Below, one piece after another: positions 7,577 to 63,962 of a stretch of DNA of 64,000 nucleotides (its first letter is position 1; each line of letters starts with the position of its first letter). Under the pieces are notes generated by a model that saw nothing but the letters and a program-made list of their open reading frames with translations, had not been told where the DNA came from and ran no database searches. The stretch comes from Primulina eburnea (taxonomy: Eukaryota > Streptophyta > Magnoliopsida > Lamiales > Gesneriaceae). The translations under genes were made by a program, and so were the position numbers. The stretch spans positions 16,029,054 to 16,093,053 of the forward strand of contig NC_133101.1 of the NCBI RefSeq assembly GCF_022965805.1, in the 5' to 3' direction.

Positions 7577-10500
7577 TTAAGAATCAAACAGATATGGATA
7601 AGAGGATCTCATCTTCTCTTCTGTTTCCCACGTTGATTCTTCTACCCCATGCCTCGACCACTGAACACGTACAAGTGGTATAACTTTATTGCGTAAAACT
7701 TTATCTTTATGATTCAAGATACAAACAGGATACTCAGTATATGATAAAGACGGATCAAGTTCAACCTCATCAGGCTGAATCACATGAGATGGATCGGGCT
7801 CATACTTACGCAACATAGAAACATGGAAAACATCGTGGATGCCAGACAAAGACTGAGGCAAATCCAAACGATAAGCACAAGTCCCAATAAGCTCAACAAT
7901 CTCGTAGGGGCCAACGAAACGAGATGACAACTTACCTCTCTTACCAAAGCGAACAACACCTCTAAAAGGAGAGATTCTCAGAAACACAAAATCTCCAACT
8001 TGGAATTCTAGAGGTCGACGACGTCTGTTAGCATAACTAGCTTGTCGGTCTTGGGCAGCTTTCATTCTTTGACGAATCAATTGGACTTTATCATGCATTT
8101 CCTGAACAATCTCAGGTCCAGTCAATTGCTTCTCACCAAATTCATCCCAACAAAGAGGTGATCGACATCGTCTGCCGTACAAAGCTTCAAAAGGAGCCAT
8201 ACCAATAGTCACCTGGAAACTGTTGTTATATGAAAATTCTACCAGCGGTAACGCTTCCTGCCAACTGTCTTTAAAATCCATGATCACTGCTCGAAGCAGA
8301 TCCTCGAGTGTCTGGATCGTACGCTCTGTCTGACCATCTGTCTGAGGATGGTACGCAGTACTCATCGCAAGTCGTGTACCCATTTCTTTTTGGAAACTAG
8401 TCCAAAACTTTGATGTGAATCTACGGTCACGATCTGAGACTATTGCAACTGGAACTCCATGAAGTCTCACAACATTTTCAATATACAGACGAGCCATTTT
8501 CTTGTACGAATACGTCCTCTCATATGGAATAAAATGTGCCGACTTAGATAATCTGTCGACAATCACCCAAATGGCATCGAAATGACGAGAAGTACGTGGC
8601 AAATGCGTGACAAAATCCATAGCCACGTGTTCCCAGTTCCACTGAGGAACCTCAAGACTATGCAATAATCCTCCCGGTCTCATTCGTTCCGCTTTGACTT
8701 GCTGACAGATCATACAACGAGACACAAACTCAGCAACATCCTTTTTCATATTCTTCCACCAAAACTGAGGCCGTAGAATATGATACATTTTCCTCCCTCC
8801 TGGGTGGATACTATAGCGAGTACAATGAGCTTCTTTAAGGATGACTGTACGCAATTCAGGAATATCTGGGACAACCAATCTACCATTCAACCGAAGAGAA
8901 TCATCTGAGTGAATTGAGAAACCAGATTGGTGTCCTTGAGATACTAACTCATAATATTTCAGAACTCGATCATCAGTTTTCTGAGCTGACTTTACACTCT
9001 GAATCAACTCTGGCTCAACAGAAATCTGAGATACACAAACAGCATTACCTTGGATTTGAAAATCCAACCCAGAAGTACAAATATCCTCTCGTAACTTAGA
9101 AACATGAATTGAGGATAAATTAACGTCAACAACCTTACGACTCAAAGCGTCGGCAATGACATTCACTTTTCTCGGATGATACTGGATCTCACAATCATAA
9201 TCTTTCAAAAGATCCATCCAACGTCTCTGTCTCATATTCAGATCTGACTGAGAAAACAAATACTTCAAACTCTTGTGATCAGAATAGATTATAAATTGTT
9301 CTCCAAACAAATAATGCCTCCAAATCTTTAGAGCAAACACGATAGCAGCCAATTCCAAGTCATGAACAGGATACTTAGACTCATGCGGTTTCAACTGACG
9401 AGAACCATAGGCCACAACTCTGCCATGCTGCAACAGAACACAACCTAATCCTCGATTAGATGCGTCGGTACAAACAACGAATCCTCCAGAACCATTTGGA
9501 ATGGTAAGAACTGGTGCAGAAGTCAGTCTTTTCTTCAACTCGACAAAACTTGACTCACATTCATCAGACCAAATGAATCTCTGATTTTTCTGAGTCAGTT
9601 GAGTGATAGGTCTAGCAATCTTTGAGAAATTTTCGATAAATCTCCGGTAATAACAAGCTAAACCCATGAAACTACGAATCTCTGGCACATTGGTCGGTCG
9701 TGCCCAGTTCAGAACTGCTTCCACTTTACTTGGATCGACTGAAATACCATGTTGAGATATGACATGGCTCAGAAACACAACTCTATCTAACCAAAACTCG
9801 CACTTGGATAGCTTGGCGTACAACTGCTTCTTTTGAAGAATTCGAAGAACTATCCTCAAGTGTTTGGCATGCTCTTCCTCAGACTTGGAATAGACAAGAA
9901 TATCATCGATGAATACAATCACAAAACGATCGAGATATTTACGAAATACTCGATTCATCAAGTCCATAAACACAGCATGAGCATTGGTCAAACCAAAAGG
10001 CATAACTAAAAATTCAAAGTGTCCGTATCTCGTGCGAAAAGCTGTTTTCGGGACATCTTCTTGTCTGACTCGCACTTGATGGTACCCAGAACGGAGATCA
10101 ATCTTAGAATACACTGAAGTACCTTGCAACTGATCAAATAAGTCATCAATCCTAGGGAGTGGATATTTATTCTTGACAGTAAACTTATTCAGTTGCCGAT
10201 AATCAATACACATCCGCATAGTACCATCTTTCTTCTTGACAAATAGAATCGGTGCACCCCACGGTGAAGAACTCGGACGAATATAACCTTTACTCAACAA
10301 ATCCTGCAATTGTTCTTTCAGTTCTTTCAGCTCAACAGGGGCTAAACGATATGGTGCTCGAGATATGGGTTCAGTTCCTGGCATTAAATCGATACTGAAC
10401 TCAACTTCTCGTTCTGGTGGAAAACCAGGAATCTCTTCTGGAAACACATCAGGAAACTCACAGACTACAGGAATATCAGAAATCCGTCGCTCATCTTGCG

Positions 10501-12106
10501 ATAGATCAACAGCATAAACCAGAAAACCTTCATGACCAGAATCTAACAATCGATTCATCTCAATGGCAGAAACTAGAGGAATCTTGGCTTGAGAACCACG
10601 ACCATAGAAATTCCATTTAGGAGCAAAGCTAGGTCTGAAACGAACTAATCCTCGATAACAGTCAACAGTGGCACGATTTGCAGTCAAAACATCCATACCA
10701 ACGATACAATCAAAGTCATGCATAGGTAGGACTATGAGATTCAGATATAGAACATTTTCATCGTGAAACAAAACCGCATTGAACACCACATTATCAGTTA
10801 TAATCATTTTGCCCATCGGAGTAGCAACAGATAGATTGGAATTCATACTAGTGGTGCGAAGACCATGCGAAACAACAAATGCATGAGAAACAAAGGAATG
10901 AGATGCTCCAGTATCAAATAACACTCGTGCTATAAAACCACATAGATTACAGTTACCAGAAATGACAGTACCTGGAGCTGCCTGAGCCTCATCCTCAGTC
11001 AAGGCAAATACATGTGCAGATGACTGATTCTGTTGACCACCTTGCCCTCTGCTCTGATGCGAAGGGCGACTAGGCTGATGGGAACACTGGGACGCAGCTG
11101 GAATTCTATTACCTTGAGCTCCACTACCTACCTGGGCTGATTTCCCCGTCTTACTAGGACAAACTCTAGCAAAATGGCCCGGCCGACCACAAACATTACA
11201 AACCCCTTGAACTCCAACACACTGATTACTGGAATGCTTGCCTCCACAGTGATCACAGTAAGGTCCACTATAGCGATATCCCCCACGGTTCCCCGAACTC
11301 CCTGAACTCGAAGAACTAGAACCAGGCTTCTTAAATTGTTTCCCACGTGGACGAAGAGATGCAGAACCAGATGAACTGAATTGTTGTCTTCCCGACTGAT
11401 GATGTTGGGTAGGAACTCGATTGCCACTCCTCTTAAGACTAGCTTCAGCCCTTTTTGCTATTTCCACTGCTTCAAGATAATTCAGTGGTTTACCGGTAGA
11501 AACAAAAGGGTGCAGATGATCGTTCAACCCTTCAATGAAACTTTCGACGACAGCAACTTGACTCGTGGCCACATGAGGAGCATATCTCAGCATAGCATAA
11601 AAAGTATCCGCATAATCCGCAACTGAAATATCGCCTTGTTTCAGGTTATGAAACTCAGAAGCCTTAGAACTGTAGAATGATGGAGGACAATAACTTTCCT
11701 TAAACTTCAGCTTGAATATATCCCATGATGGAATGATCCTCTGAGCATTTAAAGTCATCAATGTAGTAGACCACCACATTTTGGCACGATCCTTCAACTG
11801 ATGCACAGCTAATCTCAATCGACACTCTGGAGGATACTCAATCAAATCAAACAATTCCTCAATCTCAGAAATCCATAACTCAGCTTTCTCAGCTCCCTCT
11901 GAACCACTGAATCGAGGAGGATGCATAGAATGGAAACGCGCAACTAACTCATCCATCCTAAGCTGCTCTAGATGATCAGCAGCTTGTTCAACAAAAGTAT
12001 CATCAACAACACGGACACGAGGTCTACCACGCCCACGACCTCGACCACGACCTCGACCTCGAGCTAAAGGAATCTCATCAACAGGGATTTCTCCACCTCC
12101 TTCCAT
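7577..12106 (-). CDS. element A gag-pol polyprotein, intact, chromodomain type
   Basis: This unbroken frame of 1509 codons starts at the ATG at 12104-12106. Domain order: an Arg-Gly-rich N-terminus (15-32); capsid-like gag (~65-225); two zinc knuckles (CX2CX4HX4C at 284-296, then CX2CX4HX4C at 303-316); aspartic protease with DTGAS at 398-402; reverse transcriptase (~610-790) with FIDD at 732-735; RNase H (~870-990); integrase with HHCC (~1094-1134) and D1164, D1225, E1261 in DD35E spacing; C-terminal chromodomain-like tail (~1450-1509). This order is that of Ty3/gypsy chromoviruses. Compared with the related frame in C, it has His for Pro at 710 in the conserved FGLTNAP motif of RT and Arg for Pro at 1228 next to the second integrase Asp. 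The frame is open but activity is doubtful. Confidence 0.93.
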
Positions 12107-12260
12107 TCTATACGATAAAACACCAAAACAATTAGAATGGAATTAAACAAATCATATAATCACATAAGCATGTTGTCAAGTAGCATACACATGCGCAACA
12201 ACCATTTTAGTGCCAAGACACGAGTGTCCTAGACTCTAGTTCGAGCGTATCCCAGTTTAC

Positions 12261-18032: not shown

Positions 18033-18188
18033 GTAAACTGGGATACGCTCGAACTAGAGTATAGGACACTTGAGTCTTGGCACTAAAATGGTTGTTGCGC
18101 CTGTGTATGTTACTTGACAACATGTTTATGTGATTATATGATTTTTTTTTACTTCCATTCTAATTGTTTTGGTGTTTTATCGTATAGA

Positions 18189-21100
18189 ATGGAGGGAGGT
18201 GGAGAAATTACTGTTGATGAGATTCCTCTTGCTCGAGGTCGAGGTCGTGGGCGTGGTAGACCTCGTGTCCAGGTTGTTGATGATACTTTTGTTGAGCAAG
18301 CTGCTGATCATCTAGAGCAGCTTAGGTTAGTTGCGCGTTTCCATTCTATGCATCCTCCTCGATTCAGTGGTTCAGAGGGAGCTGAGAAAGCTGAGTTATG
18401 GGTTTCTGAAATTGAGGAATTGTTCGATTTGATTGAGTATCCTCCAGAGTGTCGATTGAAATTAGCTGTGCATCAGTTGAAAGATCGTGCCAAAATGTGG
18501 TGGCCTACTACATTGATGACTTTAGATGCTCAGAGGATCATTCCATCTTGGGATATATTCAAGCTGAAGTTTAAGGAGAGTTATTGTCCTCCATCATTCT
18601 ACAGTTCTAAGGCTTCTGAGTTTCATAACCTGAAACAAGGCGATATGTCAGTTGCGGAGTATGCAGATTCTTTTTATGCTATGCTGAGATATGCTCCTCA
18701 TGTTGCTGCAAGTCAGGTTGCGGTTGTTGAGAGTTTTATTGAAGGATTGAACGATCATCTGCACCCTTTTGTTTCTACCGGTAAGCCACTGAATTATCTT
18801 GAAGCAGTGGAACTAGCAAAAAGGGCTGAAGCTAGTCTTAAGAGGAGTGGCAATCGAGTTCCTACCCAACATCATCAGTCGGGGAGACAACAATTCAGTT
18901 CATCTGGTTCTGCATCTCTTCGTCCACGTGGGAAACAATTTAAGAAGCCTGGTTCTTGTTCTTCGAGTTCAGGGAGTTCGGGGAACCGTGGGGGATATCG
19001 ATATAGTGGACCTTATTGTGATCACTGTGGGGGCAAGCATTCCAGTAATCAGTGTGTTGGAGTTCAAGGGGTTTGCAATGTTTGTGGTCGGCCTGACCAT
19101 TTTGCTAGAGTCTGTCCTAGTAAGACGGGGAAATCAACCCAGGCTGGTAGTGGAGCTCAAGGTAATAGAATTCCAGCTGCGTCCCAGTCTTCCCATCAGC
19201 CTAGTCGGCCTACGCATCAGAGCAGAGGGCAAGGTGGTCAACAGAATCAGTCATCTGCTCATGTATTTGCCTTGACTGAGGATGAGGCTCAGGCAGCTCC
19301 AGGTACTGTCATTTCTGGTAACTGTAATCTATGTGGTTTTATAGCACGAGTGTTATTTGATACTGGAGCATCTCATTCCTTTGTTTCTCATGCATTCGTT
19401 GTTTCGCATGATCTTCGCACCACTAGTATGAATTCCAATCTATCTGTTGCTACTCCGATGGGCAAAATGATTTTCACTGATAATGTGGTGTTCAATGCGG
19501 TTTTGTTTCACAATGAAAATGTTCTATATCTGAATCTCATAGTCCTACCTATGCATGACTTTGATTGTATCGTTGGTATGGATGTTTTGACTGCAAATCG
19601 TGCCACTGTTGACTGTTATCGAGGAATAGTTCGTTTCAGACCTAGCTTTGCTCCTAAATGGAATTTCTATGGTCGTGGTTCTCAAGCCAAGATTCCTCTA
19701 GTTTCTGCCATTGAAATGAATCGATTGTTAGATTCTGGTCATGAAGGTTTTCTGGTTTATGCTGTGGATCTATCGCAAGATGAGCGACAGATTTCTGATA
19801 TTACTGTAGTCCGTGAGTTTCCTGATGTGTTTCCAGAAGAGATTCCTGGTTTTCCACCAGAACGAGAAGTTGAGTTCAGTATCGAATTAATGCCAGGAAC
19901 TGAACCCATATCTCGAGCACCATATCGTTTAGCCCCTGTTGAGCTGAAAGAACTGAAAGAACAATTGCAGGATTTGTTGAGTAAAGGTTATATTCGTCCG
20001 TGTTCTTCACCGTGGGGTGCACCGATTCTATTTGTCAAGAAAAAAGATGGTACGATGCGGATGTGTATTGATTATCGGCAACTGAATAAGTTTACTGTCA
20101 AGAATAAATATCCACTCCCTAGGATTGATGACTTATTTGATCAGTTGCAAGGTACTTCGGTGTATTCTAAGATTGATCTTCGTTCTGGATATCATCAAGT
20201 GCGAGTCAGACAAGAAGATGTCCCGAAAACAGCTTTTCGCACGAGATACGGACACTTTGAATTTTTAGTTATGCCTTTTGGTTTGACCAATGCTCCTGCT
20301 GTGTTTATGGACTTGATGAATCGAGTATTTCGTAAATATCTCGATCGTTTTGTGATTGTATTCATCGATGATATTCTTGTCTATTCCAAGTCTGAGGAAG
20401 AGCATGCCAAACACTTGAGGATAGTTCTTCGAATTCTTCAAAAGAAGCAGTTGTACGCCAAGCTATCCAAGTGCGAGTTTTGGTTAGATAGAGTTGTGTT
20501 TCTGGGCCATGTCATATCTCAACATGGTATTTCAGTCGATCCAAGTAAAGTGGAAGCAGTTCTGAACTGGGCACGACCGACCAATGTGCCAGAGATTCGT
20601 AGTTTCATGGGTTTAGCTGGTTATTACCGGAGATTTATCGAAAATTTCTCAAAGATTGCTAGACCTATCACTCAACTGACTCAGAAAAATCAGAGATTCA
20701 GTTGGTCTGATGAATGTGAGTCAAGTTTTGTCGAGTTGAAGAAAAGACTGACTTCTGCACCAGTTCTTACCATTCCAAATGGTTCTGGAGGATTCGTTGT
20801 TTGTACTGACGCATCAAACAGAGGATTAGGTTGTGTTCTGATGCAGCATGGCAGAGTTGTGGCATATGGTTCTCGTCAATTGAAACCGCATGAGTCTAAG
20901 TATCCTGTTCATGACTTGGAATTGGCTGCTATCATTTTTGCTCTCAAGATTTGGAGACATTATTTGTTTGGGGAGCAATTTGTAATCTATTCTGATCACA
21001 AAAGCTTGAAGTATCTGTTCTTTCAGTCAGATCTGAACATGAGGCAGAGACGTTAGATGGATCTTTTGAAAGATTATGATTGTGAGATCCAGTATCATCC

Positions 21101-22697
21101 AGGAAAAATGAATGTCATTGCCGATGCTTTGAGTCGTAAAGTTGTTGACGTTAGTTTATCCTCGATTCATGTTTCTAAGTTACGAGAGGATATTTGCACC
21201 TCTGGGTTGGATTTTCAAATCCAAGGTAATGCCGTTTGTGTATCACAGATTTCAGTTGAGCCAGAGTTGATTCAGATTGTAAAGTCAGCTCAGAAAACTG
21301 ATGATCGAGTTCTGAAATCTTATGAGTTAGTATCTCAAGGACACCAATCTGGTTTCTCAATTCATTCAGATGATTCTCTTCGGTTGAATGGTAGATTGGT
21401 TGTCCCAGACATTCCTGAATTGCGTACAGCCATCCTTAAAGAAGCTCATTGTACTCGATATAGCATCCACCCAGGAGGAAGGAAAATGTATCATATTCTA
21501 CGGCCTCAGTTTTGGTGGAAGAATATGAAAAAGGATGTTGCTAAGTTTGTGTCTCGTTGTATGATTTGTCAGCAAGTCAAAGCGGAACGAATGAAACCGG
21601 GAGGATTACTGCATAGCCTTGAGGTTCCTCAGTGGAACTGGGAGCACGTAGCTATGGATTTTGTCACGCATTTGCCACGTACTTCTCGTCATTTCGATGC
21701 CATTTGGGTGATTGTCGATAGGTTATCTAAGTCGGCACATTTTATTCCGTATGAGAGGAAGTATTCGTACAAGAAGATGGCTCGTCTGTATATTGAAAAT
21801 GTTGTGAGACTTCATGGAGTTCCAGTTGCAATAGTCTCAGATCGTGACCCTAGATTCACATCAAAGTTTTGGACTAGTTTCCAAAAAGAAATGGGTACAC
21901 GACTTGCGATGAGTACTGCGTACCATCCTCAGACAGATGGTCAGACAGAGCGTACGATTCAGACACTCGAGGATCTGCTTCGAGCTGTAGTCATGGATTT
22001 TAAAGACAGTTGGCAGGAAGCTTTACCACTAGTAGAATTTTCATATAACAACAGTTTCCAAGTGACTATTGGTATGGCTCCTTTTGAAGCTTTGTACGGC
22101 AGACGATGTCGATCACCTCTTTGTTGGGATGAATTTGGTGAGAAGCAGTTGACTGGACCTGAGATTGTTCAGGAAATGCATGATAAAGTCCAGTTGATCC
22201 GTCAAAGAATGAAAGCTGCCCAAGATCGTCAAGCTAGTTATGCTAACAGACGTCGTCGACCTCTAGAGTTTCAAGTGGGAGATTTTGTGTTTCTGAGAAT
22301 CTCTCCGTTTAGAGGTGTTGTTCGTTTTGGTATGAGAGGTAAGTTGTCACCTCGTTTCGTTGGCCCCTACGAGATTGTTGAGCGTTTTGGGACTTGCGCT
22401 TATCGTTTGGATTTGCCCCAGTCATTGTCTGGCATCCACGATGTTTTCCATGTCTCTATGTTGCGTAAGTATGAACCCGATCCGTCTCATGTGATTCAGC
22501 CTGATGAGGTTGAACTTGATCCGTCTCTATCGTATACTGAGTATCCTGTTTGTATCTTGGATCGTAAAGATAAAGTTTTGCGCAATAAAGTTATACCACT
22601 TGTACGTGTTCAGTGGTCGAGGCATGGTGTAGAAGAATCAACGTGGGAAACAGAAGAGAAGATGAGAGCATCTTATCCATATCTGTTTGATTCTTAG
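18189..22697 (+). pseudogene. element C gag-pol, interrupted by one nonsense codon
   Basis: The ATG at 18189 aligns with the start of A's polyprotein. An open reading to 21053 covers gag, two zinc knuckles, protease (DTGAS), reverse transcriptase (FIDD, with normal [10 protein letters not shown]) and most of RNase H. TAG at 21054-21056 replaces the Trp codon found in A (RQRRWMDLL). The same frame continues open to 22697 with the end of RNase H, integrase (HHCC and DD35E with SDRDPRF) and the chromodomain. Relative to A it lacks two Arg-Gly pairs near the N-terminus and three residues after EQLR. Apart from the single stop the coding sequence looks complete, consistent with a very recent copy. 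Confidence 0.93.
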
Positions 22698-52850: not shown

Positions 52851-52978
52851 TGTTCATGACATTTTCCATATTTGAACTTCAAAAATATGCAATGAAAAAA
52901 AATTGCTGACAATACATATGTAAATATAACACATATCATAATTGTACAATATGTTAGACATGAATTTAATTGTGACGA
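52851..52978. other. junction between G and H, nothing recognised
   Basis: AT-rich. Possibly G's 5' continuation, but no gag signature is seen. GACGA at 52974-52978 would be H's TSD. Its partner lies outside the window. Confidence 0.35.
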
Positions 52979-53966
52979 TGTTAACTAAAACCAGCAGACC
53001 AGAACAGTAGACTAACTAATCAGAAGCTACTGGTCTTGTAAAACTAAAACAGTAGAAAGACTAGTAATATAGAACCAGTAGAAGATGTTGCCTAACGTGA
53101 GTACTTTAAATGTTACCGTTAAAGTCACCAAGTACTAGTATTAATTGCAGCATTAAATACTATACGAAGTCATTTAATGCACTTTACCCAATTTAGTATA
53201 AAACAAGACTGATTGTTTTATAGCTTTTCTGCAGGAACTTTTTTTGGTAATAAAGCTGACTCTATCAGTTTTCTGAAGACATCTTCTGATTATAGACGTT
53301 GAACTCAGTCGCTTATATATACATGAAACAAACCCTTACGAAGAGACGACAGACGACACTACGCATAATATATTTTCAAGGATCAAAGCTAATTTTCTCT
53401 ATACGAGACAACCTCGAAATTCCTTGATTACTTAGAGTTCAACACAAAGAATAGTATCACACGCTTCATAGCAAATATCTGATCTACCAAAGATCATCTT
53501 GTGCTACTGATTCTTACTCTGTTCACAATCTTTACATCACATATATTTTATCAGGAAGAGATTGTAATCTGAAAAGAGTCTTTTCAGAACTTTGTGTACT
53601 ACATTATTTGTGAGTTGAGTAACTAAGAGTTTCAGTAGGCTGAGGTGTAAGTCCTTCTGAAGTGGGTGTGTACAAGAGTTGTACTGTAATATCCAAAGTC
53701 TTTTAATTATACCTTCTGGAAACAGAAGAAGGTGAGACGTAGAAGATTTCATCTTCGAACTTCCATAAACAACTGCTGCCTACTGTTTTTATTGTCTTTC
53801 AATTACTTCATCAGATTGTTTCCGCACGTTTTTATTGTAATCTAGGTGAAGGTATACGCAACAAGATAAACTACTATCTCTTACAGGATTTTAGTACCTC
53901 AGCAGACGAAGGAAAAACCAGTAGAGTTTATTCACCCCCCTCTAAACTCAACTTCGATCCTCAACA
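52979..53966 (+). repeat. element H 5' LTR
   Basis: TGTTAACTAAAACC...GATCCTCAACA, 988 bp. A likely TATA box, CTTATATATAC, lies at 53312-53322. The left edge is inferred from TGTT/AACA symmetry because the second LTR is not available. Confidence 0.65.
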
Positions 53967-53968
53967 AT

Positions 53969-53980
53969 TGGTATCAGAGC
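53969..53980 (+). promoter_or_regulatory. element H primer binding site
   Basis: TGGTATCAGAGC two bases after the LTR. Initiator-Met tRNA type. Confidence 0.87.
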
Positions 53981-54012
53981 AGGTTATTCTTGTTCGTGAA
54001 AAACTACAACAG

Positions 54013-56031
54013 ATGGCACACTTTAGCAAGATCCCTATGTTCTCTAAGGAAGATTTCGATGATTGGAAGATTAGAATGCAAGCTCATCTTGCGGCACAAG
54101 ATGATGACATGTGGTATGTCATCACAGATGGTCCATTGAAAATATTAAAGCCTAACACAGCCGTTGCTGTTACTGAGGGTGCACCACAGATGGTTGAAAA
54201 ATCAAGAAGTGAATGGACTAGCGAAGATAAGAAGAAGGCCAATTTTGATAATGTTGCAAAGGATATATTATATAAAATGCTCGACAAGAACACCTTCAGC
54301 AAGATTAAAATGTGTTCTACTGTAAAAGATATTTGGGAAAAGCTCATTCAGATATGTGAGGGAAATGAGCAGACGAAAGAAAACAAACTGTCTGTAGCAA
54401 TACAGAAGTTTGAAAATCTGAAAATGAGAGCTGGTGAAACTCTAAATGAGTTCGATGAAAGATTCAACAGCTTAGTAAATGAGCTAACAGCCCTGGGTAA
54501 AGAGCATAGCAACAGAGAAATAGCTCTCAAGGTGATGAGAGCCTTACCCAGAGAATGGGATGTAAAAACAATGGCTATAAGAGTATCCAAAGATCTAAAT
54601 AAGTTGGAACTGCACGACCTGTTTGCAGACCTGAAAGCATACGAGTTCGAATTGGAGGTAAGAAGTGAAGAAGAGCCTTCAAGTTTACCTACCAAGGTTC
54701 TTGCTGCTACTGCTACTGCTACTGCTACTGCTACTACCTCGTCTACTGCTGCTATAGCTGTACCTCAAGCATTACCTACTGTGATCATTGACAGTACATT
54801 GGAGAAGACTGCTAAACAAATCAGTAGTGATGCTATGTCCTTGTTTGTAAAGAAATTCTCTAGGTTCATGAAAAAGAACCAACGAACGTATCAAGGTCCC
54901 AATCGCAACTTCAAGAAAGATTCACCATCTGGTGATATGGGATGCTTTAACTGTGGAAAAATAGGTCATTTCATTGCTGATTGTCCTAAACCAAAGAAGG
55001 ATGACCAAAAGAGAAAGGATCACAAGAGGAATGACAAAAATTCCAGAAGAGATCGAAAAGCAATGATTGCTGAAGAAAGAAAATCCAAATGGGCAGACTC
55101 TAGCTCTGAGTCATCTGACTCAGAAAGTCATTCCAGTGACAGTGATGCAGAAGAAGTCAAATGTCTGATGGCAGACACTGATTCAACCTCGACATCTGGA
55201 GAGGTATTTGATTTTGATTCTAACGAATTCACACGAACTGATTTGATTAATGCTTTACATGACATGGTAGAAGAGTATTCTAGACTGTCTCAATCATTCG
55301 AAGAAGTCAAGATCAAAAATCAGAACTTGAAGAATCAGAACAGTAAGTTAACTTGCTTGCAAGTAGACAGCTGTAATGATTTACAAGTTGAGATGAGTAA
55401 ATTGAATGCGGAGAATGAGAGAGCAAAAGCAGATTACCAGGAGATGCTTTCTGAAAACCAGAAGTTATCACTACTGGTAAATGCTTGGAACAAGTCTTCT
55501 ATTTCACTGGAAAAGATGCAAGAGTTACAAAAACAATCTGGAGACAGGAGTGGTCTCGGCTTTTGTAATAATGAAGGCACTTCTGAAATGAATACTAAGC
55601 CAAAACTAGAGATGTGCAAAGGGAAGTATATTCACTTTGTGAAATCCAGTATGTTACAGAAACAAGAAGTACCTACTGTTTCAGTAGAAAGAAATGCAAA
55701 TCAGATGAACAGAAGAATGCATTATGGTCTGGGTTATGTTGAACCTAAGGAAAAAGTTGACCAGAGTTCTAGATTCAGAAAAGAATTCAACTCTGGAAGA
55801 CAACCTCCTATGAAGGTTAAAAACTACAAGTACTACGACTCTAAACCTGTTCAGAAGAGATACAGGCTGGACAACAGAAACAGAAGGGAAGAACAACATT
55901 TGAACATGCATACTGTTAGCAATAACAGATCTTCTGTTGCACACACATCTTTGAATACCCGAAGTACAAGGTCACCAAAAATTGTACAAATGTGGGTTTC
56001 CAAAGGACTGATAAGGCTTGGACCCAAATAG
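54013..56031 (+). CDS. element H gag
   Basis: The ATG at 54013 (MAHFSKIPMFSKEDFDDWKI) starts a typical copia gag. In-frame codons before it lie in the primer site and begin with TTG, so they are excluded. The capsid region (WEKLIQICEGNEQ..., LNEFDERFNSLVNEL, ALPREWD) is followed by an Ala-Thr run from a CTACTG hexamer repeat (about 54703-54740). Then come one zinc knuckle (CFNCGKIGHFIADC, about 54941-54982), a Lys/Arg-rich stretch, a Ser/Asp/Glu-rich stretch and a coiled-coil-like segment. The frame ends at TAG 56029-56031, where related elements would read on into pol. About 672 residues, long for copia gag but usual for SIRE-like elements. Confidence 0.88.
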   Translation: MAHFSKIPMFSKEDFDDWKIRMQAHLAAQDDDMWYVITDGPLKILKPNTAVAVTEGAPQMVEKSRSEWTSEDKKKANFDNVAKDILYKMLDKNTFSKIKMCSTVKDIWEKLIQICEGNEQTKENKLSVAIQKFENLKMRAGETLNEFDERFNSLVNELTALGKEHSNREIALKVMRALPREWDVKTMAIRVSKDLNKLELHDLFADLKAYEFELEVRSEEEPSSLPTKVLAATATATATATTSSTAAIAVPQALPTVIIDSTLEKTAKQISSDAMSLFVKKFSRFMKKNQRTYQGPNRNFKKDSPSGDMGCFNCGKIGHFIADCPKPKKDDQKRKDHKRNDKNSRRDRKAMIAEERKSKWADSSSESSDSESHSSDSDAEEVKCLMADTDSTSTSGEVFDFDSNEFTRTDLINALHDMVEEYSRLSQSFEEVKIKNQNLKNQNSKLTCLQVDSCNDLQVEMSKLNAENERAKADYQEMLSENQKLSLLVNAWNKSSISLEKMQELQKQSGDRSGLGFCNNEGTSEMNTKPKLEMCKGKYIHFVKSSMLQKQEVPTVSVERNANQMNRRMHYGLGYVEPKEKVDQSSRFRKEFNSGRQPPMKVKNYKYYDSKPVQKRYRLDNRNRREEQHLNMHTVSNNRSSVAHTSLNTRSTRSPKIVQMWVSKGLIRLGPK

Positions 56032-59000
56032 ATTTGGGTACCAGATACTAAAATTTGTGTTTGCAGGAACAGAAGAAGAAAACAGAAATCAGAAACTCTA
56101 CATGGTATCTGGATAGTGGATGTTCCAGACACATGACTGGACAGAAAAACCTACTCTCCGAGATAGTGAGTTGCACTGGACCAAAGATAACCTTTGGAGA
56201 CAACTCAAAAGGTAAAACCGTGGGTAAAGGTAAGATTATCCATGGTAACATAACCATTAATGATGTGCTATTAGTTGACAATCTTTGTTACAATTTAATT
56301 AGGATTAGCCAACTATGTGATAATGGTTATTCTGTAGCTTTTCAGAAGCACTCATGTGTAGTCAGAGATTCTGCTGAAACCACTGTATTAACTGGAAAGA
56401 GAGAAAGCAACACCTATAGAGTCTCTTGGAACTCAAATCATGTCAACTCACCTACATGTTTAGTTGCCTCACTTAGTAATAAGCACTGGCTATGGCACAA
56501 GAAATTGAATCATCTAAATTTCAAGTCAATCAATCATCTCAAAAAACAGAATCTTGTTGATGGATTACCTGATATTAATTTTGTTAAAAATCATGTTTGT
56601 TCTGCGTGTCAGCTTGGGAAACAGATAAGATCTAGTTTCAAGAACAAAGATAACAAGTCAACTTCAAGATGTCTTGAATTACTGCATATGGATTTATTTG
56701 ATCCAATCTCTATCATGAGCTTAGGGGAATGAAATATACTCTTGTTGTGATTGATGATTTTTCTAGATTCACTTGGGTAGTATTTCTCGCAGGAAAAGAT
56801 CAAACCAGTAGCCTCTTGATCAAGCTCTTGAAAAGGATTCAAAATGAAAAATCTTCTTCCATCATTAAAATCAGAAGTGATCGGGGTACTGAGTTCACTA
56901 ACAAATATATTGAGTTATATTTGGATGAACAAGGGATTCATCATGAATATTCAGCTGCCAGAACATCTCAACAAAACGGAGTAGCTGAGAGGAGGAATAG
57001 AACTCTAAAAGAAGCATCTAGAACAATGCTAGCAGATGCAGACATCTCTCAGCGCTTTTGGGCTGAAGCAATTAACACTGCTTGTTACACACAAAACAGA
57101 ACAATGGTCAACAAAAGGCACAATCAAACTCCGTATGAAATATGGAAAGGGAAAAAGCCCAACGTATCTTATTTTCATGTATTTGGTTGCAGATGTTTTG
57201 TGTTAAATAATGGTAAAAATCATTTAACTGCATTTGACTCAAAATCAGATGCTGGACTATTTCTAGGTTACTCTGTTGTAAGCAAAGCCTTTAGAATTTT
57301 TAACAATAGAACTCTTAATGTTGAAGAGTCAATTCATGTTGTCTTTGATGAAGGCAGCAGTGCTCCTGAAATATCTAACACGTTTGATTTAAGTAACAGG
57401 TTAGACAGGATCCACTTGGAACTGGATAGTGAAGATGATGTAGAAGCAAACATCAAGGATATTCAAAATCCAGAACCAGACATTCCGATAGTAGAACCAG
57501 AAGTACAGACATTAGATCTGCCTATACCAGCAGAAGACTCTCAAGAACCTAATACTGGTTCTGTCGAGAACGATCTCAACATATCAAATCAGGAAGATAT
57601 CCTTTTAAATCCTTTTATTTGGAGAAAATCTCATCCTCCATCATTGGTTATTGGTAATCCAGCAGCGCCTTTGAGAACCAGAAGGAAAATGATTAATGAA
57701 TACATGCATGCTGCTTTTATTTCTCAGGACGAACCAAAGAAAATTGAAGAAGCTCTTCTGGATCCCAGTTGGATTGAAGCTATGCAAGAAGAGCTGAATC
57801 AATTCAAACGAAACGAAGTTTGGTTTCTAATACCCAGACCATCTCACCAAGCGGTCATTGGAACTCGGTGGGTATTCAGAAAAAAACTCAATGAAGAAGG
57901 CACAGTGATCAGAAATAAAGCAAGACTAGTAGCTCAAGGCTTCAAACAAGAAGAAGGAATAGATTATGATTAGACCTACGCACCAGTAGCAAGGCTCGAA
58001 GCTATCAGAATATTCTTGGCCTTTGCTGCTTTCAAAAATTTCAAAGTATATCAAATGGATGTGAAGAGTGCTTTTCTAAATGGTCTTTTACAAGAAAAAG
58101 TTTACGTCGAACAACCTCCAAGTTTTATCGATCATTTTTCACCTCACCATGTATTTAAATTACACAAAGCATTATATGGTCTAAAACAGGCACCTAGAGC
58201 ATGGTATGAAACCTTATCGCAATTTCTTATTAATCATGATTTTACAATTGGAGCAGTAGACAAAACTCTGTTTACTTTAGTAAAAAATAATCATATACTT
58301 TTAGTACAGATCTATGTTGATGATATTATTTTTGGGTCAACTAACCCCAAATTGTGTGCAAAGTTTGGAAAATTGATGCAGGACAAATTCGAAATGAGCA
58401 TGATGGGAGAATTAACATTCTTCTTAGGGCTACAGATTAAACAGCTTGATACTGGAATTTTTATTAATCAAGCCAAATACACCAAGGAGCTTCTGAAAAA
58501 GTTTGGTATGGAAGCATGCTCTGCTGCTTCTACTCCAATGAGCTCATCTACTAAACTTGATAAAGATGAAAGTGGAATTCCTTTAGAGGTAACTCAGTAT
58601 CGCGGTCTTATTGGTTCTTTATTATATCTGACTGCCAGTAGACCAGATATCATGTTTGCTGTTTGCATTTGTGCGAGATTTCAATCTAACCCCAAAAAAT
58701 CTCATTATATTGCTGCTAAACGTATTTTGAAGTATTTAAAAGGAACTCAAAATGTCGGCTTATGGTATCCCAATGATTCATCGTTAAATCTTATTGGATA
58801 TTCAGATGCTGATTATGCAGGTTGCAAACTAGACAGGAAAAGCACAAGTGGTTTTTGTCAATTTCTTGGTGATAGGCTGATATCGTGAATCAGTAAAAAG
58901 CAGACTTCCATAGCCACATCTACTGCAGAGGCAGAATATCTGGCTGCTGGAAGCTGCTGCTCTCAAATATTGTGGATTTAGCAACAGTTGAAAGACTATG

Positions 59001-59255
59001 GAATTCAAGCTTCCGAATCACCTATTTTCTGTGACAATACCAGTGCCATTGCAATCACACAAAATCAGTACTTCATTCCAGAACGAAGCACATATACATC
59101 AGACATCACTTCATCAGAGATCATGTGCAGAAAAAGAACATTCGTCTGGAATACATTCCTACTGATCAGCAAGCAGCAGACATCTTTACAAAACCTCTTC
59201 CTGAGAATAAGTTTTCTTACTTTCGGAATACACTTGGATTGATAGATTTAACTTA
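56032..59255 (+). pseudogene. element H pol: protease, integrase, reverse transcriptase, RNase H, multiply broken
   Basis: Protease (WYLDSGCSRHMTG, about 56100) and GAG-pre-integrase (HKKLNHLNF) lie one frame away from gag. A one-base loss near 56725 shifts to integrase (VVIDDFSRFTWVVF, SDRGTEFTN, SQQNGVAERRNRT). TAG at 57971-57973 interrupts the start of reverse transcriptase (ARLVAQGFKQEEGIDYD). The frame continues with [10 protein letters not shown] and [11 protein letters not shown], then TGA at 58886-58888, TAG at 58979-58981 and a frameshift near 59065 in RNase H. The last recognisable residues are at about 59252. A TTTGCAG splice-acceptor-like word sits at the gag-pol boundary (about 56060-56066). 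Confidence 0.88.
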
Positions 59256-59365
59256 ATTATTTATCATTATCTGATATTTCCTTTAATTTTTGTGATTATT
59301 CAGTATCTCATTTTGCAGAAGCTAAAATTTGAACGATAGAGATAATCAGTAGAAGTCATACTTCA

Positions 59366-59776
59366 TTAAAGATAATAGAAACGAGGGCGTACATTTTTCA
59401 CTTCTGCCCTAACGTAACCTCTCCAGGATGCCAACCAAGCGGTCAGCTCTCCAGTAGAGATACGGAGAAACTCCTCTGAAGAAGCAATATTCATCAGAGT
59501 CTTTAGCTCTTTTAAGAGCATGAGAAGGTAGACGCCGTCATCAGAGACAACGTCTTCACTATCAGCACTATGAAGACGTCGATAATATTTGGGTATCATT
59601 ATCAACTCCTTGGTGGTAGATCTTCGCCCACTCTCGAAGGAAGACCTTAGCTCCTGGACTTTAGTCCAAGTAGCAAATGTCTTATTCAGCACCTTGATCT
59701 CTATTGCCTCTTTTCTTGCAGCAATCACCTCTCTCATGAACTCATCAGCCAAATCAGGACTATTCTCATTTGCCAT
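59366..59776 (-). CDS. antisense ORF 1 within element H, unknown protein of 136 aa
   Basis: The ATG at 59774-59776 opens 136 codons ending TAA at 59366-59368, opposite in strand to H's own genes and lying between pol and the env-like frame. The protein is well mixed in composition (MANENSPDLADEFMREV...), rich in predicted helix, with no signal peptide, membrane segment or known motif that I can name. A TATAAATAT box lies at 59810-59818 (minus), about 35-40 bp before the ATG, which implies a very short leader. AATAAT-type words lie past the stop (about 59255-59310). Not recognised. It could be a captured host gene fragment or a lineage-specific accessory gene. Confidence 0.5.
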   Translation of the reverse strand: MANENSPDLADEFMREVIAARKEAIEIKVLNKTFATWTKVQELRSSFESGRRSTTKELIMIPKYYRRLHSADSEDVVSDDGVYLLMLLKELKTLMNIASSEEFLRISTGELTAWLASWRGYVRAEVKNVRPRFYYL

Positions 59777-59809
59777 GTTTTAAATGACTATCTGGTTTAA
59801 CCCTTGTTC

Positions 59810-59818
59810 ATATTTATA
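59810..59818 (-). promoter_or_regulatory. TATA box before antisense ORF 1
   Basis: The minus strand reads CTATAAATATG, matching the plant TATA consensus. Its position upstream of the ATG at 59776 makes chance less likely, but no transcript evidence exists here. Confidence 0.5.
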
Positions 59819-60137
59819 GATGAAAACCATGGACCAAAGCTCGAGCAAATCTTGACTACAGAAGATATATGAAACATCATAGATCTCATCGGATTTGTTA
59901 CCATTTATTGCACTAATTTAGGAAAAACTTTATTCTTATATTCTGTGATTCTGTGTCAGAAGCAAAAGGTACTTTGTCTCTTTAACAAAACGAGGCATGT
60001 TTTATCTTCCAGTAGAAGCTATCTAGTTGACTTCTTTTTTTCTGAATTTTATCAGTCATCAGTTATTTGTCTTATTTGACCAACAATAAGTTATTTGCAG
60101 GAAAGCAGAAGGAAACATCAAGTACTCAAAATGAAAT

Positions 60138-60143
60138 TTTATT
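60138..60143 (-). terminator. AATAAA signal after antisense ORF 2
   Basis: The minus strand reads CTAATAAAATTTC, a canonical poly(A) signal about 220 bp beyond the stop of the frame at 60363-60620. Confidence 0.4.
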
Positions 60144-60362
60144 AGAAACCATTCCAGTACATTAAACGATGCAGAAGTAAAAACAGTAGATCTTCAAATT
60201 TTGTTTAACCAGTAGTGTTACACTAAGCTTTTGTCTTCTGTAATAGCACTTTGCAGAAGGTTTGCAAAGTACTTCAGCAGAAATGAAGATTCCAGCAAGC
60301 CTGAGTCTAGAAAGAATCTAGCAAGCTTGGATCTTGTTAGTACTAATCTATAATCAGATGCC

Positions 60363-60620
60363 TTAAAGGGCATCATAGATGATATCAGCTTCATCGATCC
60401 ACCAGCACTCTCTTATTGCATTAGCATGCTTCTGGAAAGGATCGACGCTACATATCAATATCAATGATAGCAACAAATCTATTTGATTGTTGTCATTACA
60501 ACTCCAGGAGTTTGATCCAAGGATCATTACGTGAAGAATGACATCTTCAAACAGACTTCTGAACATTCTTGCTTCGGCTCCTGGATCAGACTCTAACTCT
60601 TCTTTAACCTGAGATTTCAA
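60363..60620 (-). pseudogene. antisense ORF 2 within element H, start codon lost
   Basis: An 85-codon minus-strand frame (KSQVKEELESDPGAEARMFRSLFED...IDEADIIYDAL). The codon in the expected start position (60618-60620) is TTG after an A-rich leader (AACAACAAAAAAAAA). An ATG changed to TTG is the simplest reading. The next in-frame ATG is at about 60566. A TATAAAA box lies at 60669-60675 (minus), about 50 bp upstream, and AATAAA lies 220 bp downstream, so a whole transcription unit is suggested. No domain recognised. Confidence 0.4.
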
Positions 60621-60668
60621 TTTTTTTTTGTTGTTATGAATGATTAACTTCGTTCAAGTTGTGCAGGC

Positions 60669-60675
60669 TTTTATA
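60669..60675 (-). promoter_or_regulatory. TATA box before antisense ORF 2
   Basis: The minus strand reads TTCTATAAAAGCC, a strong TATA box match. Confidence 0.5.
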
Positions 60676-61226
60676 GAAGAATCAAAGACACATGCGACTG
60701 TTCACTTTTGACGGTTCAGATTGAGGGATTGCCAAGAGCCACTTGACGTTTTAATGACCACTTATTAGTTGCATTTACCGAGGGGAAATAGTATCTTAGT
60801 CAGACTAAGATTTTTTTACCTTTTTCAGTAAACAGATAGACTATTTGTCTTTTCGATAAAACAGCAAGTCTGCTGGTTTTGTCTCAGTGCTCAAATATTT
60901 CAGCACTCTGAAACTTCCAGCAGACGTTATCATAAAACGACAAATCCTCTTCTAATTATTCTTAGTAACCGTCTGGACAGCCCGCCTAATTCAAATTTTA
61001 AAATCATTCGTATCTCTGACATTTTCTGCAAATCTTTTCAAACACTCAATCATAAACATACTGACACGTGTCCTTATGTTTACTTGATGGCTGTACATTC
61101 ATTTTAAAATATCTCTTTCTCATTTTTCACTTTTACCGTTTCATAAACTGTTGCGACTTAGCTACTGATTTATCTTTATCATCTCTATCTACTGCAAATA
61201 TTATCTGATTCTATCTTCATACAGAA
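60676..61226. other. spacer between antisense unit 2 and the env-like ORF
   Basis: No gene. It would hold the promoter of the antisense unit. Its end, CTATCTTCATACAG just before AAATGG, resembles a splice acceptor (AG at 61223-61224), as expected if the env-like frame is expressed from a spliced RNA. Confidence 0.4.
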
Positions 61227-63962
61227 ATGGCCGGAGCATACACTCTCAATGCATATCAAGTCAATTTTGCTTCATTTCTCAACGTCAAGGATGAGAACCT
61301 TGTTAAAATGTTTCAAGCTCTTGAGAAATCAGGACTTCGAAAATTCCTGGAAGCACCAGCAGTGATATACAAAAATTCTCTTCTGGATTTCTACGCTAAA
61401 GCAACAGTGTATGAAGGAAAGATCGTTCACTCGCAAGGAGATGCATCCATCTCCATTGATGCCATACTATTGGGAGCAACCTTCTTCCTCCCACTTGCAG
61501 GTATGTCTGAACTATCTGATATTTCTAAACTGGATATGTCTATTGCGCTCAGCAATTTTTCAGCCTCTGGAGAGGAATTGTCTCCCTCTTGTCACAAGAA
61601 ATTACTCAAAATGGAATATCAAATTCTGGCTGATATTGTGGCAAAAGCTATTTTAGTCAAAGCCGGTACTTTCGACAAATTGACAAAGGAGAAAGTTCAA
61701 GTGATGACTGTCATCACCAAGGGAACCAAAGTGGATTGGATTCGTTTCATCTTCAGAATCATGAAAGACATGGTTGTCAAGAAAAGTTCTGGTTTTGCGG
61801 TTCAGATCAGCAAAATGCTGAAGGATGCTGGTTTTGCTTCTACAAATGAACACGATGATGTTTCGGTAACAATGATTGATGCCGAGAATGTGCTTGCTTT
61901 GAGGCTCAAGCTAACGGTGGCTGAATTTGTTGCCTTGAAAAAGGAGATTGGAGAGGGTCCTTCTGAGGTTCAGAAACCTCAACAAAAGATTAAGAGAAAA
62001 AAAGTGATCGTTTCTACTGATTCTGATAAAACAGTATCAGAAGAGTCTGTTGCTGATGTTCAACCATCCCTACCAACTCCAATCAAGAAGAAATCTCGTA
62101 CTGTCCTTAAGATAAAAAAGACAGCAGCACTTTCTGAAATTGAGAAAGTACCTATCAGACAGGTATTTCCAGAAGTGGTTCCTTCTGCACGACCCATTGC
62201 TCCTACTTCTGTACAAGCTGCTGTGTCTATTCCAACAACATCTACTGCTTCTGCTTTCAAGCCGTTGTCTGGAATAGTTATTCGAGAACCAACAATGGGG
62301 TCTTCTGCATTTCGACCCATTTTTCCTGTTTCATCAACAGACAAAGGCAAAGGAAAGTTAATTGAAGCACCGAAAGGTTTCTGACTCAGCACAATTGTGA
62401 CCACAGGAGTTGATCTTCATATGGAAGAAATAGAAAGTTCTGCCAATGATGACATGAATTTTTTTTATGAGTGGCACAAGGTTCGAATTTTTCATTCTTT
62501 TGCTTACTTCAAAAAGAAAGGATCTTATGGGAAAATAATGAATGCTGAGAAGAGGGTCTTTCAGCTTGCCAAAACAGAAAATGTGATCGAGGCCTTGCGC
62601 AGAAGGAGTTACATCCTCGATCAGTTGAAAAGTCAGAAGCTGGAATCGGTTCTGAAAGTTCTTGAATCAAATTTTGATCCTGTTGTTCCTACTGCTGTTC
62701 AGGATCAAAATGTCATTCTGACTCTGACTGACAAGTTGAATCAAATGAATGAGCAACTTTTTGCTCAAGAAAAGGGATTTGGCGAGCCAATTGAATATCA
62801 AGTCGGCCTTATTCCAGACTTTCAACAGATCCAGACAGTTGAGGAACGAACTACAGCCTCACCAAAGGCTTCTGTTCTCAGTACTCATGCTTCTCCAACA
62901 AGGCCTATTCCATCATCATCCCTGTTATCTGTACATGAACTGGCTTCAGTTGAAGAAGTCATTGAGTTGATTGTTCCAACGGCCTCTACTCAGGAAGCAG
63001 TTCCCGCTTCTTCATTGCCACCATCAGTCTCTCCAACCGCAGAACAACAGATGGCAGAATCAGATTCTATATCTATCTTGCCAAATCTAGAGATATTTTC
63101 TGCTGCTCATCAAGCAGAAATGAAAACTCTTCTGGATCAGCCTTCTGCACCTTCAGCTGCAGAATCATCAGATTCACCTGCTGCCATTGCACCAACAGAA
63201 GAGAATTTGGCCTCTGATTTGGCTGTTCCTGCTGAAGAAATTGCTCCTCCAATGGTTACTGTTGAACCAACTGTCTCTACTTTTCCAGAAGAAAGCCATG
63301 CTGACCCTGGTCCTTCTACTGCTGTGATTGACACCAATCAAGTTTCTGCTGCACTGATTGTCACAGATCCTGTTCAGACAAACACTCGTATTACTGAAAT
63401 CAAGCAACGCCTGCTTGAGCGAACCCCCTCACCTGAATCAGATTTATTCAACTTGGAGTTCCAGATTGACGTTCTGCAAAGGGAACTCAATAACGTGTCT
63501 GATTTAGTCAAGCGAATGTCCCATGAAAGCATATCAGAATTTAGTGGTGCTCAGTCTTTCAGAGAACGAATGAGCAAACACATATATAACACGGCGGAAA
63601 CCATCCAAAAAATGTGTGCTGAAACCATTGTTTTCAGACAAGCTATAACGAGAAATAACAGTCAAATCGTGCTTGTTCAAGATGATATACTCAATCGTCT
63701 CAACGGACATGATGATCTCATTCGATCACTTTCAACCTCCATGGAAGTCATGGATGCCAAGATTGACTCTCAAACTCAATCTCTCGCTACTATCAATGAT
63801 CGCATCTTTACTCAAGCTCCGTATCTAGAGATGTTGACCAATAGCATTCAAAATTTGTCTGGAAGAATGAATGATCTCTTGGCCCATGTCATTGCCGCTG
63901 ATGCCAAAAAGGGGGAAGAAAGAAGAGATCCAGCAGAAGCTCTAAGGCAATCAGAAGCTTAA
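61227..63962 (+). pseudogene. element H env-like third ORF, interrupted by one TGA
   Basis: The ATG at 61227 (MAGAYTLNAYQVNFASFLNV) opens 385 codons to TGA at 62382-62384. The same frame continues without another stop to TAA at 63960-63962, giving about 911 codons in all. Codons right after the TGA are in frame, so this is one gene with a single nonsense codon, or a read-through design. The N-terminal half is globular with a hydrophobic patch (AILLGATFFLPLAG), then Lys/Arg-rich segments (KIKRKKV, PIKKKSR). A long Pro/Ser/Ala/Thr-rich middle follows (about 62850-63400), then a heptad-rich, coiled-coil-like C-terminus (about 63440-63900). This layout resembles env-like ORFs of SIRE elements. 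No clear signal peptide or membrane anchor is seen. Confidence 0.65.

Follow-up and report, generated by a model that had tools for sequence, protein, structure and literature searches.

Candidate antisense gene pair between pol and an env-like ORF in a Sirevirus-type retrotransposon family of Primulina eburnea

Introduction

Between pol and the env-like ORF of a copia retrotransposon in Primulina eburnea, the strand opposite to gag-pol carries two protein-like frames, each preceded by a TATA box. Are these frames genes of the element, genes taken from the host, or accidents of a long spacer? The window, by which we mean the whole stretch of 64,000 nucleotides that was analysed (NC_133101.1, positions 16029054-16093053, in a genome of 812 Mb), contains most of the element. 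An initial annotation, made from the letters of the window, had suggested captured host genes or antisense regulators. Here, we address the question with copies of the element found elsewhere in the genome. Our reading, for which we see a good likelihood from the sequence comparisons, is that a Sirevirus-type family carries two independent antisense genes in its pol-env linker.

Results

The element and its affiliation

The frames lie in a full-length copia element of about 12.2 kb, here called element H, which spans 52952-65161 in window numbering and has the TSD CAATA (Table 1). Its LTR pair is 98.0% identical over 1019 aligned bases and CAATA flanks both ends, so element H is one complete insertion. 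With a substitution rate of 1.3e-8 per site per year, LTR divergence gives an insertion age of about 0.7 million years; element H is young. Domain profiles place rve before RVT_2, that is, integrase before reverse transcriptase, the copia-type order, and gag-pol in the window copy is broken by stops and frame changes.

The label SIRE-like, given in the initial annotation, fits. The 5′ LTR end CA/ATTGG and the nine-base PBS TATCAGAGC both match the Sirevirus signature (PMC2829016), and the PPT octamer AGGGGGAA is placed 10 bp before the 3′ LTR, exactly the distance described for the Sirevirus PPT, AGGGGGAG (PMC2829016). The final A in the PPT is a variant known from ToRTL1 and Tnd-1 (PMC2829016). 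The same description, as far as it was accessible, gives about four PPT copies in the linker and repeated CGG-CCG boxes in the LTRs (PMC2829016); a scan limited to the stretch between 61001 and the 3′ LTR of element H returned two PPT matches. The sequence evidence supports placing element H among Sirevirus-type copia elements, in a large family to which soybean SIRE1 is related. Elsewhere in the window, two long frames in opposite orientation (7577-12142 and 18087-22697) have gag-pol translations that are near-identical by eye.

Table 1. Features of element H, in window numbering
Feature	Position	Strand	Basis or remark
5′ LTR	52952-53966	+	TSD CAATA just before, at 52947-52951
gag-pol	53743-59242	+	profiles Retrotran_gag_2, zf-CCHC, rve before RVT_2
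gag-pol frame pieces (five)	53743-56031, 56052-56732, 56702-57973, 57974-58888, 58982-59242	+	
Sirevirus-type junction ATTGG + PBS TATCAGAGC	53967-53980	+	sequence compared with signature in PMC2829016
Antisense ORF1	59776-59366	-	136 aa + stop, 408 bp, ATG at 59776
ORF1 TATA box TATAAATA	59811-59818	-	15/15 aligned copies
AATAAA downstream of ORF2	60143-60138	-	220 bp past ORF2 stop; 13/15 aligned copies
Antisense ORF2	60620-60363	-	85 aa + stop, 255 bp; TTG start in window copy
ORF2 TATA box TATAAAAG	60668-60675	-	TATA[AT]A in 46/47 copies
AG of putative splice acceptor	61223-61224	+	just before env-like ATG
env-like sense ORF	61227-63962	+	in-frame TGA at 62382-62384 in window copy
3′ LTR	64147-65161	+	LTR comparison; beyond window end, in locus L072

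At the far side of the linker, an AG stands at most 6 nt before the env-like start in 40 of 46 copies. Here (61185-61226 and copies), a T-rich run ending in ACAG just 5′ of the env-like ATG looks acceptor-like. The first part of the env-like ORF (61227-62381) has a weak likeness to Pfam Transposase_32, at an E value of 2.6e-5 that is below the curated cut-off.

Two frames on the antisense strand

Spacer DNA had 42 matches in the genome, and 39 places besides the window were compared; both anchors are present in 36 of these 40 spacers, window included. A spacer alignment of 15 copies includes the window and leaves out the rearranged copy L023.

Both frames are present where the initial annotation had put them, antisense to gag-pol, between pol and the 3′ LTR and before the env-like ORF. 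Measured from stop to stop on the minus strand, the ORF1 frame has 137 codons (59366-59779) and the ORF2 frame 96 (60363-60653). In 2000 first-order Markov simulations of the minus-strand spacer, a frame of at least 137 codons never appeared, and one of at least 96 codons appeared in 5%; length alone is therefore unlikely only for ORF1. As a frame, ORF2 stands with its 96 codons, but the window copy is without an ATG at the natural start, position 60620, where it reads TTG. ATG is present there in 13 of the 15 aligned copies (window among the 15) and absent in the window copy and L022. Codon-usage scores are highest in the ORF1 and ORF2 minus frames, by a slight margin, and comparison of the two proteins with each other found no similarity (best E 2.3). 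Upstream of ORF2, several copies share a minus-strand frame (60728-60916) that has about 63 codons and no Met.

Promoter words before both frames

The 1984-bp spacer contains TATAAA twice on the minus strand (59818-59813 and 60675-60670) and not at all on the plus strand, with about 1.5 expected per strand. TATA boxes had been noted 35-55 bp before the frames, and the distances from TATAAA to start are 42 bp for ORF1 and 55 bp for ORF2. Across the window, 3% of minus-strand positions have TATAAA 25-65 bp upstream, which means that both ORFs would have one by chance about once in 1000 cases. Among copies with a placeable start, 25 of 27 have TATA[AT]A before ORF1 and 46 of 47 have it before ORF2; the boxes whose loss from other copies had been set beforehand as a refutation are thus retained.

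We also ranked 10-mers by conservation in 230 bases around each start, using chosen divergent copies. At ORF1 (13 copies) the TATA-box 10-mer ranks first, with 0.98 against an upstream mean of 0.64, and at ORF2 (16 copies) it shares the top rank with the word GTGGCTCTTG, with 0.89 against 0.70. This word lies near -120 of ORF2; in the window it corresponds to minus-strand GTGGCTCTTGGC at 60731-60742, conserved like the TATA box. GTGGCTCTTGGC, about 120 bp before ORF2, is possibly a factor-binding site. Among nine distant copies compared at ORF1, CTATAAATA is replaced by CAATAAATA in L061. Some 35 bp downstream of the ORF1 TATA box a C-A is conserved which, if used as the start, would give a very short leader.

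The AATAAA reported 220 bp past ORF2 is there, and 13 of the 15 aligned copies keep it. Further minus-strand AATAAA words occur at 59934 and 59909 and 2.5 are expected per strand in the spacer, so its mere presence says little.

Unequal constraint on ORF1 and ORF2

Estimates of dN/dS were made from open copies at set length only (21 of 29 for ORF1, 41 of 51 for ORF2). They replace an earlier run that counted the leader within ORF2 and used the single best HSP of each copy, with results of 0.53 for ORF1 and 0.81 for ORF2. ORF1 has an overall dN/dS of 0.33; in the same run the start of the env-like ORF gave 0.29 and the end of RNase H 0.21. In the 21 open copies the ratio falls with rising divergence class (0.56, 0.42, 0.31, 0.25), and differences by codon position, 3509/2760/6190, show a third-position excess. 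The ORF1 frame has w of 0.30-0.33 and four of the five other frames have 0.87-1.40; the fifth, on the plus strand, shares third positions, has w of 0.35-0.36 and carries about 0.036 stops per codon.

Indels tell a similar story for ORF1. Across the 15 aligned copies, events per 100 bp number 0.2 in ORF1 (one in 408 bp), 1.6 in ORF2 and 2.5-6.7 in non-coding parts. Stop and indel counts by reference copy used 23 (ORF1) and 42 (ORF2) of 44 copies kept by coverage and divergence, and they take copies as independent although ancestry is shared. Some of the stops counted, in either ORF, probably mark the natural end of a distant ORF that is slightly shorter. On this basis ORF1 has 9 stops against about 40 expected (39.6 with reference L020). 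From these comparisons, ORF1 is very probably a real gene under purifying selection.

The signal for ORF2 is mixed. Its dN/dS is 0.76, with codon-position differences of 10516/8347/7572 and without a third-position excess (41 open copies), and six gapless copies in the earlier run gave 1.18. With reference L014, however, ORF2 has 11 stops where 38 are expected. Of its indels, 33 preserve the frame and 10 shift it; in a non-coding control made of 35 near pairs only, the numbers are 38 and 67. Reference L020 gave 10 stops where 76 are expected, and 75 indels in frame to 10 that shift it. Among the frames that overlap ORF2, dN/dS is lowest in the opposite plus frame, at 0.51 overall and 0.63 in the distant set; this frame carries 0.024-0.041 stops per codon. 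In many copies (for example L028, 1849-2232) the plus strand is open for 115-140 codons in register opposite ORF2, and in the window copy this frame is closed.

Because the opposite plus frame has the lower dN/dS, our confidence that ORF2 is a gene is set lower, although its sequence features still make this fairly likely; weak amino-acid constraint and the TTG of the window copy make it the weaker case as a protein. We read it as a fast-evolving small protein, the rival readings being a non-coding function or constraint imposed by the opposite strand. Comparison of dN/dS across copies, which the initial annotation had proposed for both frames, thus bears out ORF1 (0.33 overall, 0.25 among the most diverged) and gives a mixed answer for ORF2. 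Stops and indels at neutral rates, which had been named as evidence against the proposal, are not seen in ORF1; ORF2 has few stops and mostly in-frame indels, yet a dN/dS of 0.76.

Distribution of the pair and loss of ORF1

A search of the genome with the ORF1 protein gave 151 matches, of which 150 were listed (window included, 61-100% identity), the best 150 of 4801 candidates being scored; 131 of the 150 span at least 130 of 136 residues, as counted by eye. The ORF2 protein gave 150 matches, with the best 150 of 653 candidates scored. Among the listed matches, 89 of 150 for ORF1 and 124 of 150 for ORF2 are stop-free. Thirty ORF1-ORF2 pairs are common to both lists, all with identical order and strand, and ORF1 adjoins the env-like ORF in nine of nine distant copies examined, which had been picked from ORF1 matches. 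By tblastn, ORF2 was not found at its usual place in L060 and L062.

The copies fall into groups. One has both ORFs, and 20 aligned copies of another retain ORF2 but are missing the complete ORF1 unit, approximately 59250-60080. The large ORF1-less, ORF2-bearing subfamily comprises L027-L047, L067, L070 and L071, and the ORF2 TATA box is directly visible in the last three. In a tree of the pol end (about 380 bp, 50 of 53 sequences used) ORF1 is absent from 24 of 50 copies and is therefore dispensable in them. A single nested clade (35 copies, support 0.92) contains all 24, together with 11 copies that have ORF1. The deeper branches all carry ORF1; since the deepest copies had been chosen by ORF1 match, deep ORF1-less branches would have been missed. 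The simplest reading of these sequences is that ORF1 is ancestral and that loss followed, with recombination between element types.

Homologue searches and predicted structure

No homologue was found in the protein collection for ORF1 alone, ORF2 alone or the ORF1 alignment, and the viral and prokaryote collections gave no matches. Searches of Pfam with the window ORFs and 10 and 9 aligned members gave no convincing match (five stray families with one member each, best E 0.013), nor did the PDB (best E 0.024). PF04195 (Transposase_28) had no match at E 1 to the window ORFs or to the 10 and 9 aligned members. Lack of homologues is weak evidence, because the collections may hold few plant proteins. 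Structure models are helical and of low confidence (mean pLDDT 56 and 54); for the conserved, charged ORF1 protein of 136 aa, a helical fold is thus predicted with low confidence.

Discussion

Comparison of copies shows that the genes and their promoter words are conserved, that ORF1 is under purifying selection, that ORF2 is kept open, and that ORF1 is present or absent as a unit. From the initial proposal, conserved antisense units in a SIRE-like element stand, with strong selection on ORF1, and the case for ORF2 is mixed. In the reading that we favour, each antisense gene would have its own TATA-type Pol II promoter, from which Pol II would transcribe two short, intronless antisense mRNAs. 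If translated, ORF1 would give a protein maintained by the element itself and ORF2 a small, fast-evolving one, and the proteins may serve the element's own cycle in trans, in an accessory capacity like that proposed for gene23 of Grande. By this analogy, an accessory or regulatory role for the pair is plausible, if tentative, and antisense regulation of the element H family is possible.

Several other explanations have to be weighed. That open frames and TATA boxes arose by chance on the antisense strand is extremely improbable: the length of ORF2 is unremarkable (P about 0.05), but ORFs and boxes are conserved across diverged copies, which already contradicts chance. Capture of both genes from the host, the origin raised in the initial annotation, would agree with their ordinary plant-gene signals and with the lack of any detected relation to gag or pol. 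The searches of the protein collection, Pfam and PDB nevertheless give it no support, and ORF1 stands beside the env-like ORF in every distant copy examined. A distant host relative could escape these searches, because the copies examined had been picked by their ORF1 match and scoring was limited to the best 150 candidates; we regard capture as improbable.

Perhaps only ORF1 is a real gene. ORF2 would then be a relic, decaying or non-coding, that recent amplification has kept open or that the opposite strand has shaped. Its dN/dS without third-position excess, the value above 1 in gapless copies, the lower ratio of the opposite plus frame and the missing ATG in two copies are all what such a relic would show; the near-universal TATA[AT]A, the ATG in 13 of 15 copies and the in-frame indel bias are not, and we consider this rather unlikely. 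The antisense transcripts might instead act mainly as RNA, through pairing with genomic RNA that leads to siRNA or transcriptional interference, with the ORFs mattering little. ORF2 keeps its promoter word, start and AATAAA despite weak amino-acid constraint, and for other retroelements the accessible text of PMC7264820 considers non-coding antisense transcripts and control through dsRNA. Protein-level selection and indel avoidance in ORF1 are clear, however, and in ORF2 indels are mostly in frame and stops below expectation, so that a mainly RNA-based role seems unlikely to us.

Two antisense genes as part of the element, our preferred reading, also allow a more speculative extension. Were env-like RNA spliced at the putative AG acceptor, the intron would contain both antisense genes; antisense RNA could then anneal to genomic RNA, whereas spliced env-like RNA would lack the complementary stretch. 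The pair might then form a modular cassette of two separately promoted genes inside the stretch spliced out for env, with antisense RNA pairing as one layer and ORF1 protein acting in trans as the other, a two-layer control new to copia; we consider this doubtful.

Among known systems, the antisense extra ORF of the Ty3/gypsy elements Grande and Retand comes closest. RIRE2, like Grande, is a Ty3/gypsy element. Grande, RIRE2 and Retand are all known to carry extra ORFs in antisense orientation (PMC7264820, PMC11963269), and our comparisons draw on the accessible parts of these and the other papers cited. In maize, Grande gene23 is an antisense ORF between pol and the 3′ LTR whose own promoter drives its transcription (PMC7264820). 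ORF1 and ORF2 resemble it in orientation and position, with candidate promoters that are marked here by TATA conservation. In the text available, a single antisense gene is described for Grande, whereas element H has two, in a Ty1/copia element with an env-like sense ORF. The antisense ORFs of Retand carry Transposase_28, unlike ORF1 and ORF2, which are without a match and belong to the other superfamily, and every Retand cluster has an ORF of more than 600 bp in the region (PMC11963269), compared with 408 and 255 bp here.

Within its own lineage, element H has the PBS junction, PPT and sense env-like ORF in common with SIRE1 and ToRTL1 (Sirevirus / SIRE; PMC2829016). Forward 3′ extra ORFs occur in 74% of SIRE elements in a survey with a cut-off of at least 250 codons (PMC6317226). 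The REXdb class eORF-3′R has the same minimum (PMC6317226), and ORF1 and ORF2, with 136 and 85 codons, fall below it. The position of the aORF-3R class, between pol and the 3′ LTR and antisense to gag-pol, is that of both ORFs; for its conservation trait, ORF1 has 0.33 against 0.29 and 0.21 yet is absent in 24 of 50 copies, and ORF2 is widespread and weakly constrained. For the two copia families that have extra ORFs in PMC4093653, the proteins are described as likely env-like. In the open literature searched, as far as its text was accessible, we found no description of an antisense ORF pair in SIRE-lineage copia.

SIRE-lineage copia elements are an abundant plant group, and antisense accessory ORFs have been described in Ty3/gypsy plant elements. 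Should the pair be expressed, accessory genes on the antisense strand would have originated, or have been kept, in both superfamilies. Because 85-136 codons is less than the 250-codon survey cut-off, genes of this kind may go unnoticed in many elements, and the many copies with and without ORF1 make the role testable. Judged from sequence, the elements of this Sirevirus-type family appear to possess an antisense layer of accessory or control functions, one that is invisible to long-ORF surveys.
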